Part shown: positions 2,908 through 9,684 of the stretch, piece by piece | How positions within the stretch are numbered: the first letter of the stretch is position 1 | Layout: each line of letters opens with the position of its first letter | Source: Methanobacteriaceae archaeon | GTDB lineage: Archaea; Methanobacteriota; Methanobacteria; Methanobacteriales; Methanobacteriaceae | Length of the DNA: 9,684 bases | Reading direction: 5' to 3' | NCBI GenBank assembly: GCA_900766745.1 | Contig: CAAFWR010000083.1 | Span: forward strand, 1 to 9,684 | Position numbers and translations under genes: made by a program | The notes under the pieces: generated by a model | Seen by the model: the letters and a program-made list of their open reading frames with translations, nothing else | Databases searched by the model: none | Told to the model about the DNA's origin: nothing

Positions 2908-2933
2908 AAAAAAAAGCCATCCGATTGGACGGC
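2908..2933 (-). terminator. Rho-independent terminator at the end of tracr-like RNA 1
   Basis: On the minus strand GCCGTCC-AATC-GGATGGC forms a 7-bp stem, followed by eight T. It lies 4 bases beyond the conserved end of the tracr-like RNA at 2938. The RNA therefore appears to be transcribed on the minus strand and to end here. Confidence 0.85.
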
Positions 2934-2937
2934 ATAT

Positions 2938-3125
2938 CTAGAAAAGACTTAAGCAGGTGCAAGACTCCTGCATCTTCTCTAGGCTGAAATTTGTTTTCTC
3001 CCTCTTATTCAGCTAAAGAGGGCTCGGCGTCAAAGCAGAGGGACAACCGATGTCTTTTGTTTACGGTCTGATGCAGTCTTGCAACCTGCATACTGCCTTT
3101 TTCTATTCCTATGTAAAATTTTAAC
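2938..3125 (-). ncRNA. tracrRNA-like structured RNA, copy 1 (behind the helicase gene)
   Basis: One of four conserved copies, read on the minus strand. It begins with an anti-repeat at 3101-3118 that pairs with the adjacent repeat: GTTCTA pairs with TAGAA, then an AA/AA internal loop, then CC, a short mismatch and GTAAAA with TTTTAC. Next comes AAAAAGGC, as in Cas9 tracrRNAs just after the anti-repeat, then a 6-bp hairpin (3086-3091 with 3071-3076). A stem CCGA/TCGG (3047-3050, 3024-3027) replaces the ACTGA/TCAGT stem of the other copies, a compensatory change. A hairpin at 3000-3022 and a 10-bp terminal stem (2973-2982 with 2938-2947) follow, then the terminator. Compared with copies 2 and 3 it has about 8 extra bases between repeat and anti-repeat. 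At about 180 nt it is long for a Cas9 tracrRNA. The effector family is inferred, not seen. Confidence 0.75.
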
Positions 3126-3285
3126 GGTACGAATCGTACGAACTTTTACAAGGGTTTAGAACAATGTTCCAGCTACATAAGTTACTGTGTAGGTACGAAT
3201 CGTACGAACTTTTACAAGGGTTTAGAACGAATAAAATCATGTAAGATACACAAATCCTGTACGAATCGTACGCAATGATTTAGTT
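3126..3285 (-). CRISPR. Mini-CRISPR array 1 (two repeats, one decayed repeat, two spacers) behind the helicase gene
   Basis: Two identical 37-bp repeats lie at 3126-3162 and 3192-3228 (66-bp period). On the minus strand they begin GTTCTAAACCC and end in the palindromic GTACGATTCGTAC. A decayed third copy starts at about 3258. Spacer S1 is 3163-3191 and spacer S2 is 3229-3258. On the minus strand the order is helicase stop codon (3311-3313), decayed repeat, S2, repeat, S1, repeat, anti-repeat, tracr-like RNA. S2 matches a segment of the helicase gene itself at 25 of 30 positions (see 3838-3867). S1 has no clear match in the window. There is no leader and no adaptation gene nearby. The array is probably transcribed as the 3' end of the helicase mRNA. 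Confidence 0.85.
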
Positions 3286-3310
3286 AATTTATTAACTATT
3301 TTAGCCAATT

Positions 3311-5218
3311 CTAATAACACCATTCAACCTTACTGTTATCTACAAAATGCGAAACAGAGCTTTTCATCACCCTGCCGTACCTTTCAATATATTCGGGCTT
3401 CATAATAAATAATTTGTTCCGAGGCCTTGTTGATGCAACATAAAAACATCTAAGTTCTTCTTCGTCTTCGGGGGAACCAGCGTCATCTTCATTTGTTGAC
3501 GGGAATAAGCCGTCTACGCAGTCCATGATAAAGACCGTATCAAATTCCAGTCCTTTCGCTGAATGAATCGTAGAAAGAATCACAGCTGTATCCGTGTCAT
3601 CAACCATAACAGGATTGTCGATTGTACTGTCCAGAAAATCCTGAATACTCTTGCTTTTCTCGACAAGTTTCGTTAAAGAACCTAAATTCTTTTGTTGTCC
3701 TTTGATTCTTCCAAGATCGATTTCACGGTTTTCCTCGTTACTGTATTTCGCTTTCCGGATTCTCTCCTTTTGAAAATCACAGTAAAATTCGATTAAGAAT
3801 CCGATGTTTGTCGGCGTTAGTTCAAAGAACATCTTCTGGATGAAATCATGTAAAATACATAAATCTTTATAAAACGCTCTTTTCTTATACTTGTCATTCA
3901 GCATACCTTTTACTCCAAGAATCTTGCAGTCTGCTGCGATTCTACGAGCATTTGTTTCACCAATCAATGGCACCTGCTGAAGACATCTGAACCAAGCAAT
4001 TTCGTCATTTGGATTTACGTAAATTCTAAAGAAAGACAGGATATCTTTCACATATTCCAATTCAAAGAACTTCTTGCCACCATACTTAACATATGGAATC
4101 TTTTCCTGATTCAGAATACCTTCCAGAATATTTGAAGAACGACTGCTTCTGAAAAGGACGCAAATATCATTTGGCTTTACACCTTTGCTCAATTGTTCTT
4201 GAATTTTGATTTTGATGAATCGAGCTTCTTCTGTCGTATCATAGGAACGAACAACCTGTGGCATAACACCGTCGCCTCTGACAGACAAAAGATTGTGAGG
4301 AGGCGTTTGAAAAGCCTTCTTTGTTACTTCATTTGAAAACTCAATAATCGGAGTCGTGCTTCTGTAATTTCGCTTCAGATAAATTTCCTTGCAGTTCTCG
4401 AAATGATTAGGAAAATCCTGAATATTCTTGATTTCGGCACCTCTGAAACCGTACAGACTCTGAACAGCATCTCCTACGATTGCGATGTTATCGTGGTATT
4501 TCTGGAAACTGAACAGAAGTTTTTCCTGTAATGCGTTGCTGTCCTGATATTCGTCGACCATAATATAATGGTATTGACTAGCAAGTTTTTGGACGACATT
4601 TGGATATTCATTAAATAATCGCAAAGTCTCCACAAGCAAGTCATCATAATTTAATGTATTGTTTTCTTTTCGGTAGGCATTGAAAGAATCAATCAGTGAC
4701 ATGATTTTATATGAAAATTCACGGTATTTTGGATAATCTTCGTTAATGATTCGACTGATACTTTTTTGTGTATTTATTGACGCACTCAGAACGGACGCTA
4801 TTGTGGATGATTTTGGGAACCCTTTTGGATATTTATAATCCTTATCGGCTGAACGAATCATCTTTATGATTTCGGCATCATCACCAGGTGCCAGAATTGT
4901 AAAATTCTTAATACCAAGGAGTGCTCCGTATCTTCTAAGTGTTTCAACACAAAACGAATGGAATGTACAGGCTGTTACTCTATTCCCTTCAGGGACAAGT
5001 TTACAGATACGTTCTTTCATTTCATCGGCAGCTTTATTTGTAAAGGTTAATAACAGGATGTTTTCTGGAAGTATCCCGTTTTCAATCATATACATCGTTC
5101 GATATGTTAATGTTCTTGTTTTCCCACTGCCTGCACCCGCCAGAATACGAAGTGGACCATGTATAGTTGTAGCTGCTTCGTATTGCTCTGGATTTAGTTC
5201 GTTTTTGTAGTCAACCAT
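3311..5218 (-). CDS. UvrD/PcrA-like superfamily 1A DNA helicase, 635 aa
   Basis: An ATP-driven 3'-5' DNA helicase of the UvrD/PcrA/Rep class, expected to act in replication or repair of the element. All motifs are visible: Q motif LNPEQYEA (8-15), Walker A AGAGSGKT (27-34), TFTNKAADEM (58-67), TFHSFC (85-90), Walker B DEYQD (222-226), motif III GDAVQSLYGFRG (249-260), motif IV KRNYRS (282-287), motif V STIHSAKGLEFD (549-560) and motif VI YVASTRPR (593-600) with the arginine finger. At 635 aa it is about 100 residues shorter than chromosomal PcrA and lacks the long C-terminal tail, so it is probably an element-borne version. AGAAAGGAG five bases before the ATG supports the start. The upstream cassette (tracr-like RNA 2) has no terminator, so this gene may be read through from the 229-aa gene. 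Its own mini-array starts right after its stop codon, and spacer S2 targets an allele of this gene. Confidence 0.96.
   Translation of the reverse strand: MVDYKNELNPEQYEAATTIHGPLRILAGAGSGKTRTLTYRTMYMIENGILPENILLLTFTNKAADEMKERICKLVPEGNRVTACTFHSFCVETLRRYGALLGIKNFTILAPGDDAEIIKMIRSADKDYKYPKGFPKSSTIASVLSASINTQKSISRIINEDYPKYREFSYKIMSLIDSFNAYRKENNTLNYDDLLVETLRLFNEYPNVVQKLASQYHYIMVDEYQDSNALQEKLLFSFQKYHDNIAIVGDAVQSLYGFRGAEIKNIQDFPNHFENCKEIYLKRNYRSTTPIIEFSNEVTKKAFQTPPHNLLSVRGDGVMPQVVRSYDTTEEARFIKIKIQEQLSKGVKPNDICVLFRSSRSSNILEGILNQEKIPYVKYGGKKFFELEYVKDILSFFRIYVNPNDEIAWFRCLQQVPLIGETNARRIAADCKILGVKGMLNDKYKKRAFYKDLCILHDFIQKMFFELTPTNIGFLIEFYCDFQKERIRKAKYSNEENREIDLGRIKGQQKNLGSLTKLVEKSKSIQDFLDSTIDNPVMVDDTDTAVILSTIHSAKGLEFDTVFIMDCVDGLFPSTNEDDAGSPEDEEELRCFYVASTRPRNKLFIMKPEYIERYGRVMKSSVSHFVDNSKVEWCY
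3838..3867 (-). other. Protospacer-like segment inside the helicase gene (matches spacer 3229-3258)
   Basis: This stretch encodes helicase residues K451 to I459/I460 (KDLCILHDFI). It equals spacer S2 of array 1 at 25 of 30 bases. The five differences (at 3839, 3842, 3854, 3860 and 3866) all fall on third codon positions and all keep the amino acid (ATC/ATT, TTC/TTT, ATT/ATC, TTA/TTG, AAA/AAG). Two of them lie within the five bases at the end where a Cas9-type PAM would sit, which should protect this copy. Confidence 0.85.
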
Positions 5219-5286
5219 AATGACTCCTTTCTAAAATGACGTCTCTGGCTTTAAATGCCTGTCGAATCTTTTTTTTATTGAATAAT

Positions 5287-5466
5287 CTAGAAAAGACTTA
5301 TGCATGTGCAAGATTCCTGCATCTTCTCTAGGCTGGAACTTGTTTTCTCCCTCTTATCCAGCATAAGAGCTCTCAGTACCAAAGCAGAGGGGCAACTGAT
5401 GTCTTTTGTTTACGGTCGGATGCAGTCTTGCCACCTGCATACTGCCTTTTTCTATTCCATTGCAAA
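5287..5466 (-). ncRNA. tracrRNA-like structured RNA, copy 2 (behind the 229-aa gene)
   Basis: Same architecture as the other copies, on the minus strand. The anti-repeat at 5450-5465 (TTGCAATGGAATAGAA) pairs with the adjacent repeat start GTTCTAAACCATTGCAA, leaving only an AA/AA internal loop. AAAAAGGC, the ATGCAG/CTGCAT hairpin, the ACTGA/TCAGT stem, a CTCTTAT/ATAAGAG hairpin and the 10-bp CTAGAGAAGA/TCTTTTCTAG terminal stem follow. Unlike copies 1 and 4 no T-tailed hairpin follows; the sequence runs about 70 bases to the helicase start codon without a clear promoter, so read-through into the helicase gene is likely. The 5219-5286 stretch holds only that leader and the ribosome binding site. 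Confidence 0.75.
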
Positions 5467-5665
5467 GGTACGAATCATACTAGAAATTGCAATGGTTTAG
5501 AACGATAAAGACTATCTGGAAGCTCGCAAAACGTACGAATCATACTAGAAATTGCAATGGTTTAGAACCTTTCACGGGGTCTTAGGAATCTCCCTAAGTC
5601 TGAATCGTACTAAGCTTTACAATGATTTAGAACACGTTGTTCGAAAATGTACTAAGCTTTGCAAA
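5467..5665 (-). CRISPR. Mini-CRISPR array 2 (three repeats, one decayed remnant, two full spacers) behind the 229-aa gene
   Basis: Repeats lie at 5467-5503, 5532-5568 and 5597-5633 (65-bp period); the third is diverged. A remnant at about 5639-5665 is only 42 bases on, so most of a spacer has been lost, and it reaches to within five bases of the stop codon (5670-5672). On the minus strand intact repeats start GTTCTAAACCATTGCAA, differing from array 1 where their anti-repeat also differs. Spacers are 5504-5531 and 5569-5596. The first weakly matches the neighbouring 229-aa gene (see 5951-5978). The second has no match that I can find and contains a self-complementary stretch (CTTAGG ... CCTAAG). 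Confidence 0.82.
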
Positions 5666-5669
5666 AAAA

Positions 5670-6359
5670 TCAAATATGACAGTCTACAAAAGTCGCAACA
5701 TAATCCTTATATTTCGATACAAGAGCTTCGTAATTTTCATCCCATTCACGTTCTTCTTCAGGCGTTGCTGAACAATATGCAAACCATCCCATTTTCCCTT
5801 TTTCAATCCATTTTCCATCAGGGGTGACAATGGCGTGTGTTGAGAATTGTGATTGCGATCTTGCATATGTTTCCGCATCTTTGTATCGTAACAAAAAGTA
5901 TTTAGCGTTAAAGAAAGAGTCTTTATCTGCTGTTGCGGTTTCCTCCCAGTATTTAAGTGCGTCCTCATAGTCTTTTTGATTGATTCCAAAATCAATTTCA
6001 GAAACAGGACATTCAACGGCTGATGAACCGTCTTTTAATGGAATTGGATGCTTCCCCCATCGTCCGCCGACACTGTACCAATTCCATTTGGATTGTGGAT
6101 TGTATGTTGACCAGATGTTTCCCTCTTCGTCAATTATTCCGCCAAAATATGATCTTAAACAATCTGTCTCGGACATTGCTTTGTATTTTTCCTGAACATC
6201 AGGCTTAAGTTTGGCAAGAGTCTGTTCCATTTCTTCAACAGCTTTTTCATGTGGTATGTAAAGGTATGGTTTAACTTCCAAATTCTCGTCAAAAGAAGCT
6301 AAAAGATCTTCAAAAGAATCATCTTTTGCATGCAAAACTAAAACACTAAAGTGTGACAT
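5670..6359 (-). CDS. Phage/plasmid-type 'MSHFSVLV' family protein, 229 aa
   Basis: It begins MSHFSVLVLHAKDD and contains LLASFDENLEVKPY (residues about 19-32), EEGNIWSTYNPQSKWNWYSVGGRW in the middle, and many aromatic and acidic residues. Proteins with an MSHF-V-V start, a 'PFDEN' segment and a 'YNP.SKWDWY.IGGRW' core are frequent on phages and plasmids of Bacillota; I know no established function for them. It looks soluble, with no signal peptide or membrane segment. The start is supported by GAGGA about eight bases upstream and by a strong extended -10 promoter at 6386-6403. Mini-array 2 follows immediately after the stop codon, then tracr-like RNA 2 and the helicase gene, so the 229-aa gene probably heads a four-part transcript that ends at 2908. 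Confidence 0.9.
   Translation of the reverse strand: MSHFSVLVLHAKDDSFEDLLASFDENLEVKPYLYIPHEKAVEEMEQTLAKLKPDVQEKYKAMSETDCLRSYFGGIIDEEGNIWSTYNPQSKWNWYSVGGRWGKHPIPLKDGSSAVECPVSEIDFGINQKDYEDALKYWEETATADKDSFFNAKYFLLRYKDAETYARSQSQFSTHAIVTPDGKWIEKGKMGWFAYCSATPEEEREWDENYEALVSKYKDYVATFVDCHI
5951..5978 (+). other. Possible diverged protospacer in the 229-aa gene (weak match to spacer 5504-5531)
   Basis: The gene here encodes QKDYEDALK. Spacer 5504-5531, read on the plus strand, encodes DKDYLEARK. About 19 of 27 bases agree, including nine in a row (AAAGACTAT), and the match is in frame. Unlike the other two matches, the guide would be antisense to the mRNA. This could be chance. Confidence 0.4.
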
Positions 6360-6433: not shown

Positions 6434-6441
6434 TTAAACAC

Positions 6442-6466
6442 AAAAAAAGCCTAGCAAAAGCTAGGC
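6442..6466 (-). terminator. Rho-independent terminator closing the structured RNA region
   Basis: On the minus strand GCCTAGC-TTTT-GCTAGGC forms a perfect 7-bp stem followed by seven T. It lies two bases after the outer stem of the last RNA domain (6469-6576). Confidence 0.88.
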
Positions 6467-6583
6467 AAATGCACCAGACGATAAGTTTACGCACGGCTTG
6501 AATTTGGAAATAATTCCAAAACGTGAGTGAGCCACATTTACAAAAGATGCTCGATACGCTCGAATGAATGGTGCATATAAAAT

Positions 6584-6655
6584 ATGAAACCATCAGCCAG
6601 CTTTTGTGAACTATAGAAATGGCGTTTTTAAAAGGAATCTGGCTATACGTTTCAT
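6584..6655 (-). repeat. Structured RNA module, copy A
   Basis: Outer stem ATGAAAC/GTTTCAT (6584-6590, 6649-6655) and inner stem AGCCAG/CTGGCT (6595-6600, 6639-6644). The shared block TTTTAAAAGGA (6626-6636, plus-strand reading) abuts the inner stem, and CCATC follows the outer stem. Stem sequences differ from copies B and C but keep pairing. Confidence 0.65.
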
Positions 6656-6781
6656 TGTTTATTTAGAAAATCTGCTATAAAGTGAATTTCAGCGACTCAA
6701 GAGCTTGACTACGCATTCTAGAACTACATAATCTAACACTATTGCCTCATCCATACACCTCATCACAAACTCTAAACCCCA

Positions 6782-6854
6782 AACAAACCATCCGTCAACG
6801 GATAAATATTTGATTTTCTGTTATTTTAAAAGGATGTTAATCGTTACGTTTGTT
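6782..6854 (-). repeat. Structured RNA module, copy B
   Basis: Outer stem AACAAAC/GTTTGTT (6782-6788, 6848-6854), inner stem TCAAC/GTTAA with one U-G pair on the minus strand (6795-6799, 6836-6840), and shared blocks CCATC and TTTTAAAAGGA (6824-6834). Confidence 0.6.
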
Positions 6855-7101: not shown

Positions 7102-7120
7102 ATATGTTTACTTACGAATT

Positions 7121-7300
7121 CTAGAAAAGACTCAAGCAGGTGCAAGACTTCTACATCTTCTCTAGGCTGGAAATTATTTTCTCCCTCTTATCCAGCAGAA
7201 GAGGTCTCAGTACCAAAGCAGAGGGGTAACTGATGTCTTTTGTTTATGGTCGGATGCAGTCTTGCTGTCTGCATACTGCCTTTTTCTATTCCATTGCAAA
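7121..7300 (-). ncRNA. tracrRNA-like structured RNA, copy 3 (behind the TerD-like gene)
   Basis: Same layout as the other copies on the minus strand: anti-repeat at 7284-7299 (TTGCAATGGAATAGAA), AAAAAGGC, ATGCAG/CTGCAT hairpin, ACTGA/TCAGT stem, CCTCTT/AAGAGG hairpin, and the CTAGAGAAGA/TCTTTTCTAG terminal stem ending at 7121. The repeat next to it reads CCGTTGCAA instead of CCATTGCAA, giving a G-U pair with the anti-repeat on the minus strand (a C-A mismatch on the plus strand). No T-tailed hairpin follows; transcription may continue into the structured RNA region that ends at 6442. Confidence 0.75.
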
Positions 7301-7402
7301 GGTTCGAATCATGCTAAGAATTGCAACGGTTTAGAACACGCCGCTTTGATGCAAGAAAGATGCATGGGACGAATCGTACTAAGAATTACAACACTTTAGA
7401 GC
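7301..7402 (-). CRISPR. Mini-CRISPR array 3 (one repeat, one decayed repeat, one spacer) behind the TerD-like gene
   Basis: The intact repeat is 7301-7337 (minus strand starts GTTCTAAACCGTTGCAA) and the decayed copy is 7366-7402 (65-bp period), ending 20 bases from the stop codon at 7423-7425. The only spacer, 7338-7365, matches the adjacent TerD-like gene at 21 of 28 bases (see 7949-7976). On the minus strand the order is stop codon, decayed repeat, spacer, repeat, anti-repeat, tracr-like RNA, a minimal natural single-guide design. Two repeats alone would be weak evidence for CRISPR, but the match to arrays 1 and 2 makes it firm. Confidence 0.78.
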
Positions 7403-7422
7403 TAGTTTAGAACAACTAGAAA

Positions 7423-9396
7423 TTATAAATCTAAGAAAAAGTTTTCGTCAATAAGACTCAAATCAAACCCCTTGGCAACTCCAATCACGCAGTCTGCATC
7501 TTCTTTTGAGTCAACCAAAGTCACATTCTGAGCTGCAAACAGGATATCTAAATATTCCTTCAATGAGAACGGTGTTGTCATTGAATCAATTTCAAGATAA
7601 TTTCCAGAAGTTCCTACGTATCGAACGAAACGGTCCTTAATATTAATTAAACCATAATGGATATCCCTTGACTTAGAAGTTAGTTCATGAGAAATAAAAC
7701 ATGATTTAGCATCATATAGTTTTACATCTTCATTTAATTTTTCAACAGCCATCAAGCCAGTAAAGCACGTGTCGATCTCGGAGAAACAAGGTCTACCGCT
7801 ATATAGATTAATGTTTGCTGAAACACATTCAACTTCTGTGTTGTTCATATCAATGTCGATATATTCAGCCGCATCCGAATGTGTAATATCTCCAGACGTT
7901 ACGATACCTGATGATTTAAAATCACCATTCCATCCAACGTGTCCCCATACACCATTTTGTTTTAAGAAAGACGCATGTAAATCTACATCTACGCGACGGC
8001 TATCATTCCAATAAACAAAGAAACGCATTTTATTTACAGATTCAGGAATTTTGAAAGCCATACCTCCACGGTTATAGCCACCTTCTTCTGATTTTAAAAT
8101 CATAGAATGTTCAACATCATAATCCTGCGTGTCAAGATAAATCTTCTTGTCTTTCAAATCTGTTGAAATACATGACAGCTTAATGCGAAGGGTTTGTTTT
8201 AAGATGGTTTTGAAAATCTTCCAGTCACCAACTTTGTCAGCTCCCCAGCCCCTTTCAGAAGCTTCAGCTAAATCGACATTCAAAATATCGACAATAGTCT
8301 GCGTACTTAACTTTGAAGCTACTTCGGGTGAAGTTAAAGTTTCTTTTACAAATTTTGCATATCCTAAAGAAATTAAACGAATTCCCATACGCAAAAGCAT
8401 TCCTGGTCTTTGTTTCAACAGATTGAACAAACCTTTTTCATCTTTTGCTGAAATCATTTTTTCAACACCTGACATCCATGAGTGAAGCTTTTTGTCTTTC
8501 AACAGATTCACAGAATCAACGTGAGTTGAATTTCTTGAATATGTTGAGTAGTCAATATGATCCATTACACGGATGACCATTTCACGTCTTTGATTTGAAT
8601 AGATTAGATTTTCTTCAAATAAAGCACTGTCAAAAGAGTCCCATAACTTGGCAATGATACGTTTCTGAGACGTTTTCAAATGCCATGAAGAATTGTCCAA
8701 ATATTCTTTTGTGCATTTAAAAGCATCCATAGGATTCTTGCATGCCAATTTTAATAAAGGAAGTGACTTATTCTGAACGCCTAAATCGAAAATCACCTGT
8801 ACATTTTCCTTGAAAGGAATGACAAGAGCTTCTAACTGTTCTGAAGACAAGTGTGATACAGTTTCCTGAATCAATTCGTTTTGATTGTTTGTTAAACGAA
8901 CTTTTCTGGATAGAATCATTTTAGATGCGATATAGAATAAATCCTTAGCATCAACAACTTCGATTTGCTTCAAATCTGTTGTGAATGTATCAGATTTGTC
9001 ACGTTTACATGCGTTTGATTCTGGAAGCCATCCTTTTGATACAGGAGCTCCTGTAAAGAAAGCAACTCCATATGTACTCATATAGTGAAGCATCTGATGA
9101 AATCTGAATGTAGCTTCATCCATTTTCATGACTTCATCAGGGAAACCTGGATACATTGGTTCTGTATCTACATGACCAATGTAATCTGTCAATTTATCAC
9201 TTAAACCTTTCAAATCAGCACATGCAAGCAATACAAAGCTGTCAGGCGTAAATGTATAACCTAAAGACTGCATGTTTGCGTCTAATGTCATGACTTCTGC
9301 TAGGTTTTTGTCTGAAATATCTTCTTTTTTGCGAACTGGTTCAACGCCAATGATTCGAAGTTCTTGGAAAATACCGTGTCTACAATCTTTAATCAT
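7423..9396 (-). CDS. Large protein with a C-terminal TerD-like domain, 657 aa
   Basis: I recognise only the C-terminal half. From about residue 455 (numbered from the alternative TTG one codon upstream) it reads MRFFVYWNDSRRVDVDLHAS, then HVGWNGDFKSSGIVTSGDIT and AAEYIDIDM. This beta-rich pattern (V-DVDL, a central 'SGDIT', a later 'I-ID') fits TerD-type domains, known from tellurite and stress-response proteins, some of which bind calcium. The N-terminal 450 residues are mainly helical and unassigned, with a MDEATFRFHQMLHYMSTYG segment at 93-111. I chose the ATG at 9394-9396 because AGGAGG then lies seven bases upstream; the in-frame TTG at 9397-9399 would be too close. There is no signal or membrane segment. 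It has its own promoter, and mini-array 3, whose spacer targets an allele of this gene, starts right after the stop codon. Confidence 0.9.
   Translation of the reverse strand: MIKDCRHGIFQELRIIGVEPVRKKEDISDKNLAEVMTLDANMQSLGYTFTPDSFVLLACADLKGLSDKLTDYIGHVDTEPMYPGFPDEVMKMDEATFRFHQMLHYMSTYGVAFFTGAPVSKGWLPESNACKRDKSDTFTTDLKQIEVVDAKDLFYIASKMILSRKVRLTNNQNELIQETVSHLSSEQLEALVIPFKENVQVIFDLGVQNKSLPLLKLACKNPMDAFKCTKEYLDNSSWHLKTSQKRIIAKLWDSFDSALFEENLIYSNQRREMVIRVMDHIDYSTYSRNSTHVDSVNLLKDKKLHSWMSGVEKMISAKDEKGLFNLLKQRPGMLLRMGIRLISLGYAKFVKETLTSPEVASKLSTQTIVDILNVDLAEASERGWGADKVGDWKIFKTILKQTLRIKLSCISTDLKDKKIYLDTQDYDVEHSMILKSEEGGYNRGGMAFKIPESVNKMRFFVYWNDSRRVDVDLHASFLKQNGVWGHVGWNGDFKSSGIVTSGDITHSDAAEYIDIDMNNTEVECVSANINLYSGRPCFSEIDTCFTGLMAVEKLNEDVKLYDAKSCFISHELTSKSRDIHYGLINIKDRFVRYVGTSGNYLEIDSMTTPFSLKEYLDILFAAQNVTLVDSKEDADCVIGVAKGFDLSLIDENFFLDL
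7949..7976 (-). other. Protospacer-like segment inside the TerD-like gene (matches spacer 7338-7365)
   Basis: The gene encodes HASFLKQNG here. The spacer, read on the minus strand in the same frame, encodes HASFLHQSG. 21 of 28 bases agree; five of the seven differences are at third codon positions and the other two change K to H and N to S. Differences cluster towards the end where a Cas9-type PAM would lie. Confidence 0.75.
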
Positions 9397-9435
9397 CAAA
9401 ATTCCTCCTTCTTTTAAGTATGAAACATTTGTGGT

Positions 9436-9483: not shown

Positions 9484-9509
9484 AAAAAAAAGCCACCCAA
9501 CTGGATGGC
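9484..9509 (-). terminator. Rho-independent terminator at the end of tracr-like RNA 4
   Basis: On the minus strand GCCATCC-AGTT-GGGTGGC (one U-G pair) is followed by eight T, four bases after the tracr-like RNA ends at 9514. It mirrors the terminator at 2908-2933. Confidence 0.85.
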
Positions 9510-9513
9510 AAAG

Positions 9514-9684
9514 CTAGAAAAGACTTATGCAGATGCAAGACTCCCGCATCTTCTCTAGGCTGGAACTTGTTTTCTCCCTCTTATCCAGCGTAAGAGGTCT
9601 CAGTACCAAAGCAGAGGGGCAACTGATGTCTTTTGTTTACGGTCGGATGCAGTCTTGCTGTCTGCATACTGCCTTTTTCTATTC
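9514..9684 (-). ncRNA. tracrRNA-like structured RNA, copy 4 (cut by the window edge)
   Basis: The fourth copy on the minus strand lacks only most of the anti-repeat, which lies beyond the window. It has AAAAAGGC, the ATGCAG/CTGCAT hairpin (9662-9667 with 9647-9652), the ACTGA/TCAGT stem, a CCTCTTA/TAAGAGG hairpin and the terminal stem ending at 9514. Inside the terminal hairpin GCGGG pairs with TCTGC through two G-U pairs that exist only in minus-strand RNA. A further mini-array, and by analogy a gene, should lie just beyond 9684. Confidence 0.75.

Follow-up and report, generated by a model that had tools for sequence, protein, structure and literature searches.

In the portogloboviruses SPV1 and SPV2, the mini-arrays carried by the virus have their targets in related viruses, at loci close to the array, and the corresponding locus of the carrier is mutated (PMC6858448). 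The closeness of target and viral mini-array is reported in that account, which leaves it unexplained. Earlier work, as cited there, found that the spacers of phage mini-arrays target adjacent genes of close relatives (PMC6858448). A review presents mini-arrays, which use host repeats, as a means by which viruses compete with one another (PMC11656645). Huge phages are described as carrying arrays directed at their phage competitors, many of them having no interference genes that could be recognised (PMC7162821). Homing endonucleases also act between phages. In co-infections the intron homing endonuclease gp210 of PhiPA3 is reported to cut the homologous gene of the other phage (PMC11620839), and phage homing endonuclease genes are described as sitting near essential genes (PMC10448857).

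We analysed a 9,684-nt stretch of DNA (contig CAAFWR010000083.1), hereafter the window, that resembles these systems in part. As described for SPV1 and SPV2 (PMC6858448), its arrays are short, have no cas genes alongside, are mismatched to the carrier's own locus and lie close to the target; the relatives' alleles are seen here as protein. SPV1 and SPV2 are archaeal viruses with host-like repeats and leaders according to the same account (PMC6858448), whereas the window holds several cassettes in 10 kb, every one of them fused to a tracrRNA-like element and lying behind a different gene. TracrRNA-carrying multi-copy cassettes are not among the features described for the phage mini-arrays of Faure et al. 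2019, as presented in PMC6858448 and PMC7099407, or in the review PMC11656645. In the tracr-L of S. pyogenes guide and tracrRNA form one molecule (PMC11417352), as is predicted here; tracr-L is described as guiding repression of the cas promoter (PMC11417352), whereas here the spacers of a repeat-spacer array are predicted to run into the tracrRNA. Like the phage homing endonucleases described in PMC11620839 and PMC10448857, the element sits in or beside a gene whose allele in a co-infecting relative would be attacked. The target of a homing endonuclease is specified by the protein, whereas here it would be specified by RNA, with the nuclease presumably in trans and homing hypothetical. TracrRNA-fused mini-arrays beside target genes did not appear among the titles and abstract starts listed in searches of open-licence literature, which is a weak negative. 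What looks new relative to the known virus mini-arrays is the fused tracrRNA-like element, the presence of several cassettes in 10 kb and the different gene ahead of each array.

Results

An array spacer matches the adjacent helicase gene

The arrays, the genes ahead of them, the tracrRNA-like elements and the terminator- and promoter-like sites given below are all on the minus strand. Array 1 lies directly behind a gene for a 635-aa UvrD/PcrA-like helicase (3311..5218; Pfam UvrD-helicase, 5.9e-71; phrog_1967, 3.5e-114), as an earlier note on this DNA had stated. In minus-strand order the array consists of a degenerate first repeat, which is the third copy (3259..3294), spacer S2 (3229..3258), the 36-nt repeat R2 (3193..3228), spacer S1 (3163..3192) and repeat R1 (3127..3162), which is contiguous with tracrRNA-like element 1. 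The boundaries of S2 follow from the 36-nt repeats at 3127-3162 and 3193-3228 together with the degenerate third copy from 3259.

The earlier note had claimed that S2 aligns without gaps to the helicase gene at 3838-3867, which is the own-allele counterpart of its protospacer, with 25 of 30 bases identical. The alignment was reproduced at exactly these coordinates, and all five differences fall at codon position 3 and are silent, also as claimed. The peptide KDLCILHDFI that spacer and gene were said to share had to be shortened. DLCILHDFI is encoded in complete codons of both, while the K needs one base outside the spacer. The dismissal of chance held up, as 0/20,000 dinucleotide shuffles reached 25 matches in the window outside the arrays (mean 18.9, largest 24). 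In translated form S2 scored 51 against the helicase, compared with a largest score of 34 among 400 shuffles. The proposal that a related helicase allele is either the source or the target of S2 is likewise well supported, since very close helicase proteins exist and array 3 repeats the pattern. Relatives P0001 (97%) and P0003 (98%, partial) carry KDLCILHDFI, and P0002 (92%) carries NDLCILHDFI.

A second spacer matches the gene ahead of array 3

The gene upstream of array 3 encodes a 658-aa protein (7423..9399; phrog_33734, 4.4e-20). Behind it stand a degenerate repeat (7367..7402), spacer S1 (7338..7366) and repeat R1 (7302..7337). S1 matches the 658-aa gene at 7949-7977, the own-allele counterpart of its protospacer, at 22/29 positions, and 3/20,000 shuffles were as good. 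Five of the seven differences are at the third codon position. S1 encodes HASFLHQSG, where the 658-aa protein of the window has HASFLKQNG and P0121, a relative that is 96% identical, has HASFLHQNG. P0121 has the K-to-H change of the spacer without its N-to-S change. When 20 proteins were searched with the translated spacer, P0121 ranked first, above the window's own 658-aa protein.

Both matches lie in the gene beside the array

Five intact spacers were defined: S1 and S2 of array 1, S1 and S2 of array 2, and S1 of array 3. Two of the five (array 1 S2 and array 3 S1) have matches in the window above chance. In each case the match lies in the gene that adjoins the array of that spacer, and both guides have the same sense as the matched gene. 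Pooled over the two, 10/12 differences are at third codon positions, where one third is expected (binomial 5e-4). Counted from the 3' end, the mismatches of the guides to the carrier's own sites include positions 2 and 5 for array 1 S2, and 3, 6 and 7 for array 3 S1. The 3' flanks of the two targets, taken from the carrier's own alleles, read AGAAGATG and ATGGGGAC, two flanks being too few for a PAM call. The target sites lie 527 nt (3838-3867) and 526 nt (7949-7977) from the gene end, a likeness between two cases that may be coincidence.

Array 2 lies behind a gene for a 229-aa protein (5670..6359; phrog_10079, 1e-23). At its start are repeat R3 in altered form (5598-5633) and one more copy, which is truncated (together 5598..5665), followed by spacer S2 (5569..5597), repeat R2 (5533..5568), spacer S1 (5504..5532) and repeat R1 (5468..5503). 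Neither spacer of array 2, nor S1 of array 1, matched anything nearby above chance in the shuffle test and the translated search. S1 of array 2 was considered as a third match to an adjacent gene and rejected. Its best place in the window is the adjacent 229-aa gene (19/29), but 2974/20,000 shuffles equal this; the match is antisense, the differing residues that it encodes are absent from close homologues, and the translated search was null. Two further stretches, 5634-5662 and 7403-7432, gave no match above chance when seven stretches were compared with 300 shuffles each. Both lie within degenerate repeats and were left out of later spacer counts.

Chance similarity is a negligible explanation for the two matches. 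It could be argued that just five spacers were tested and that three show nothing, but shuffles did as well in only 0 and 3 of 20,000 trials, each match is in the one adjacent gene, in the same sense and in frame, and P0121 carries a matching substitution. The resemblance of spacers to the neighbouring gene is real, and it is stronger than first described.

The matches might instead reflect control of the carrier's genes by its own arrays, with imperfect guides or the RNAs themselves acting on the adjacent gene. The guides do have the gene's sense and match it at 76-83% of positions, and a natural single guide is reported to repress the cas promoter in S. pyogenes (PMC11417352). This explanation is nevertheless highly improbable. 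The self-mismatches include presumed seed positions, the divergence at third positions fits a homologous allele rather than a self-tuned site, and array 3 S1 fits the protein of a relative better than the carrier's own.

A tracrRNA-like element abuts each array

An element of about 180 nt is present in four copies in the window, and one copy abuts each array. Element 1, with its anti-repeat, occupies 2937..3126, element 2 occupies 5286..5467 and element 3 occupies 7120..7301. Element 4 (9512..9684) is cut by the end of the window, and any array that belongs to it would lie beyond. Arrays are therefore seen with 3/4 elements, each right behind a minus-strand gene. They hold one or two intact spacers of 29-30 nt between repeats of 36 nt.

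In the minus-strand direction an anti-repeat forms the start of the element. In the predicted fold the part GUUCUA-AA-CCAUUGCAA of the repeat pairs with UUGCAAUGG-AA-UAGAA, giving two stems separated by an AA/AA internal loop. The whole fold has a z of -2.9, with 1/200 shuffles as good. Two stems with an internal loop are the layout of Cas9 crRNA:tracrRNA duplexes, and 36-nt repeats, 29-30-nt spacers and a stem-loop-stem duplex fit type II systems. Where the arrays differ, the repeat:anti-repeat helix still pairs, through U-A in place of C-G in array 1 and through a G-U in array 3; array 1 also has two broken pairs. Across the whole structure 94.9% of 237 cells are paired. Double changes number 5, against 1.6 in shuffles (1/500 reaches 5), and one of them is in the repeat:anti-repeat helix. 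These counts are taken as suggestive because they come from four related copies in one window. The element is predicted to be a tracrRNA whose anti-repeat pairs with the start of the repeat. Since R1 runs straight into the anti-repeat, spacer, R1 and tracrRNA could fold as one molecule, and we predict that together they form a natural single guide. A scan of Rfam gave no tracrRNA family match (E up to 1).

Predicted strand of transcription

Terminator-like sites of the intrinsic type lie directly after element 1 (2908..2933) and element 4 (9484..9509), while no such site follows elements 2 and 3. The region contains 7 terminator-like sites, compared with 4.3 (sd 2.2) in shuffles. One promoter-like site (7422..7451, 11/12) lies where the 658-aa gene ends and points into array 3, and a weaker one lies ahead of array 1 (3298..3327, 9/12). 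Promoter-like sites in the region are not in excess, with 22 against 23.7 in shuffles. Among the pairing cells, 13 G-U against 7 A-C favour the minus strand, which is modest support. Elsewhere in the window, the minus strand of the intergenic stretch 6440-6800 has a better fold than any of 100 shuffles (z -2.8), with a terminator-like site at its end (6466-6449). It is possibly a further non-coding RNA, and no tRNA was found in it.

The opposite strand would suit a type V-like system built on a Cas12 or TnpB descendant, in which a plus-strand tracrRNA ends in the anti-repeat and is followed by repeat and spacer, with the same targeting. The base pairing is almost strand-symmetric, and two IMG/VR phage contigs, L068 and L071, which encode a protein weakly related to the 658-aa protein, have the order Cas12f-like/TnpB protein, stretch of about 200 nt, repeat-spacer array. 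However, on the minus strand elements 1 and 4 are each followed by a terminator-like site and the scan lists no plus-strand site immediately behind an array, the G-U cells favour minus by 13 to 7, and the repeat and spacer lengths and the stem-loop-stem duplex fit type II as it is generally known. On account of the terminator-like sites on the minus strand and of a duplex that resembles type II, the plus-strand reading was set aside as the main explanation and kept as a rival that we consider unlikely. It stays alive because of the Cas12f-like protein ahead of the array in L068 and L071.

In these two contigs (L071:7777-9760 and L068:13602-15700) the Cas12f-like/TnpB-like protein has 488 aa and the repeat is about GTTATAACTCACGTGTATGTATGAATTGTGAG. 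Eight spacers from their arrays were compared with the window. The best agreements were 19 to 22 of 32-35 positions, no clear match by raw identity counts.

Source and relatives of the window

Relatives of the 658-aa protein were found in 65 IMG/VR loci (L009-L073) and 3 phage records, those of the 229-aa protein in 5 IMG/VR loci and 27 phage records, and those of the helicase in 157 phage records. The IMG/VR relatives that alignment found for the helicase (1 locus) and the 229-aa protein (5 loci) are all distant. Two of the genes, the helicase and the 229-aa gene, have relatives in Moorella phage MTATph1, where the helicase relative lies near recombination and nucleotide genes. The 658-aa and 229-aa families also occur in two different Rhodococcus phages, Weasels2 and Finch, rather than together in one phage. 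Relatives of the 658-aa protein are common as well in Ruminococcus and other bacterial assemblies, mostly from rumen or gut (287 stretches). For this reason a phage origin of the window is called likely and not certain. A further protein, of 653 aa (505-2466), gave weak below-cutoff matches to a coiled-coil family and DUF2325, and no match in phage records.

The DNA of a close relative, an exact protospacer and a PAM were sought in IMG/VR, phage, plasmid and GTDB contigs and were not found. The element itself was absent from IMG/VR, GTDB contigs, phage and plasmid records at the sensitivities used. Eight loci from pattern scans (L001-L008) were judged by eye to be chance matches. A search with nhmmer gave no significant match to the element in the loci with relatives of the 658-aa protein (L009-L073 and L074-L152). 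The tracr model had no convincing match in 28 genomes or records or in sets of 391 and 395 genomes, at a sensitivity uncalibrated by a positive control. Its sole match at E <=0.01 (L161, E 0.008) fits poorly, is without array-like repeats and was put down to chance. The repeat pattern was found in 0/391 genomes of the first of these two sets, which covers the class to which a Ruminococcus assembly belongs, again uncalibrated by a positive control. Array 1 searched against phage records (E up to 10) gave short weak matches in 19 records, the best rows at E 5. Within the 9.7-kb window we found no cas gene, cas9 included, and recognised no Cas12f/TnpB gene and no nuclease gene either in the cassettes or elsewhere.

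Discussion

Spacers that resemble the gene next door, joined to tracrRNA-like elements, suggest Cas9-type guides against relatives' alleles of that gene. We regard it as fairly probable that dispersed guide cassettes of this predicted type let their carrier, likely a phage, cut the allele of the adjacent gene in a co-infecting relative. Transcription of the minus strand would yield the guide RNA, and a Cas9-like nuclease supplied in trans, encoded either by the host or in another part of the carrier's genome, would use it. The guides would direct this nuclease to the allele of the adjacent gene in the co-infecting relative, which would be cut. The carrier would be spared by its self-mismatches near the presumed PAM side. 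Two outcomes can be envisaged. The cut allele may be lost, which would exclude the rival; alternatively it may be repaired from the carrier, so that the flanking allele and the cassette would be copied into the rival, in the manner of homing endonucleases.

Exclusion might also operate without any homing. Host type II spacers acquired from a related phage could have been recombined into the phage, their placement being a by-product of that event. Such plain superinfection exclusion is possible, though we would not count on it, and it overlaps with the exclusion branch of the scheme above. Recombinational acquisition from host arrays has been proposed for phage mini-arrays (PMC7099407). Four dispersed elements, three of them behind different genes with arrays of their own, are unlike the product of one recombination at a spacer. 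The repeat and tracr are moreover absent from the sampled bacterial genomes, which is a weak point against this explanation.

We therefore return to guide cassettes directed at relatives' alleles and to their second outcome. Repair of the cut allele may possibly copy the cassette into the rival, and such homing would account for the position of the guide next to its target. A position beside a gene homologous to the target, a trait of homing elements, is found for 2/3 arrays seen. More tentatively, the cassettes may represent a distributed form of RNA-guided homing, multiplied along the phage genome and served by one nuclease in trans, in effect a natural split gene drive. If so, each cassette would lie behind the gene whose rival allele is cut, and many loci would be driven through co-infecting relatives.

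The cassettes suggest a testable reason for the closeness of viral mini-arrays to their targets, namely RNA-guided exclusion or homing in which the target is set by a 30-nt spacer and not by a protein. If this is true, CRISPR would be linked to the biology of homing endonucleases. Guide-nuclease pairs would then be predicted in uncultured phages, and gene-conversion tracts would be readable from metagenomes.
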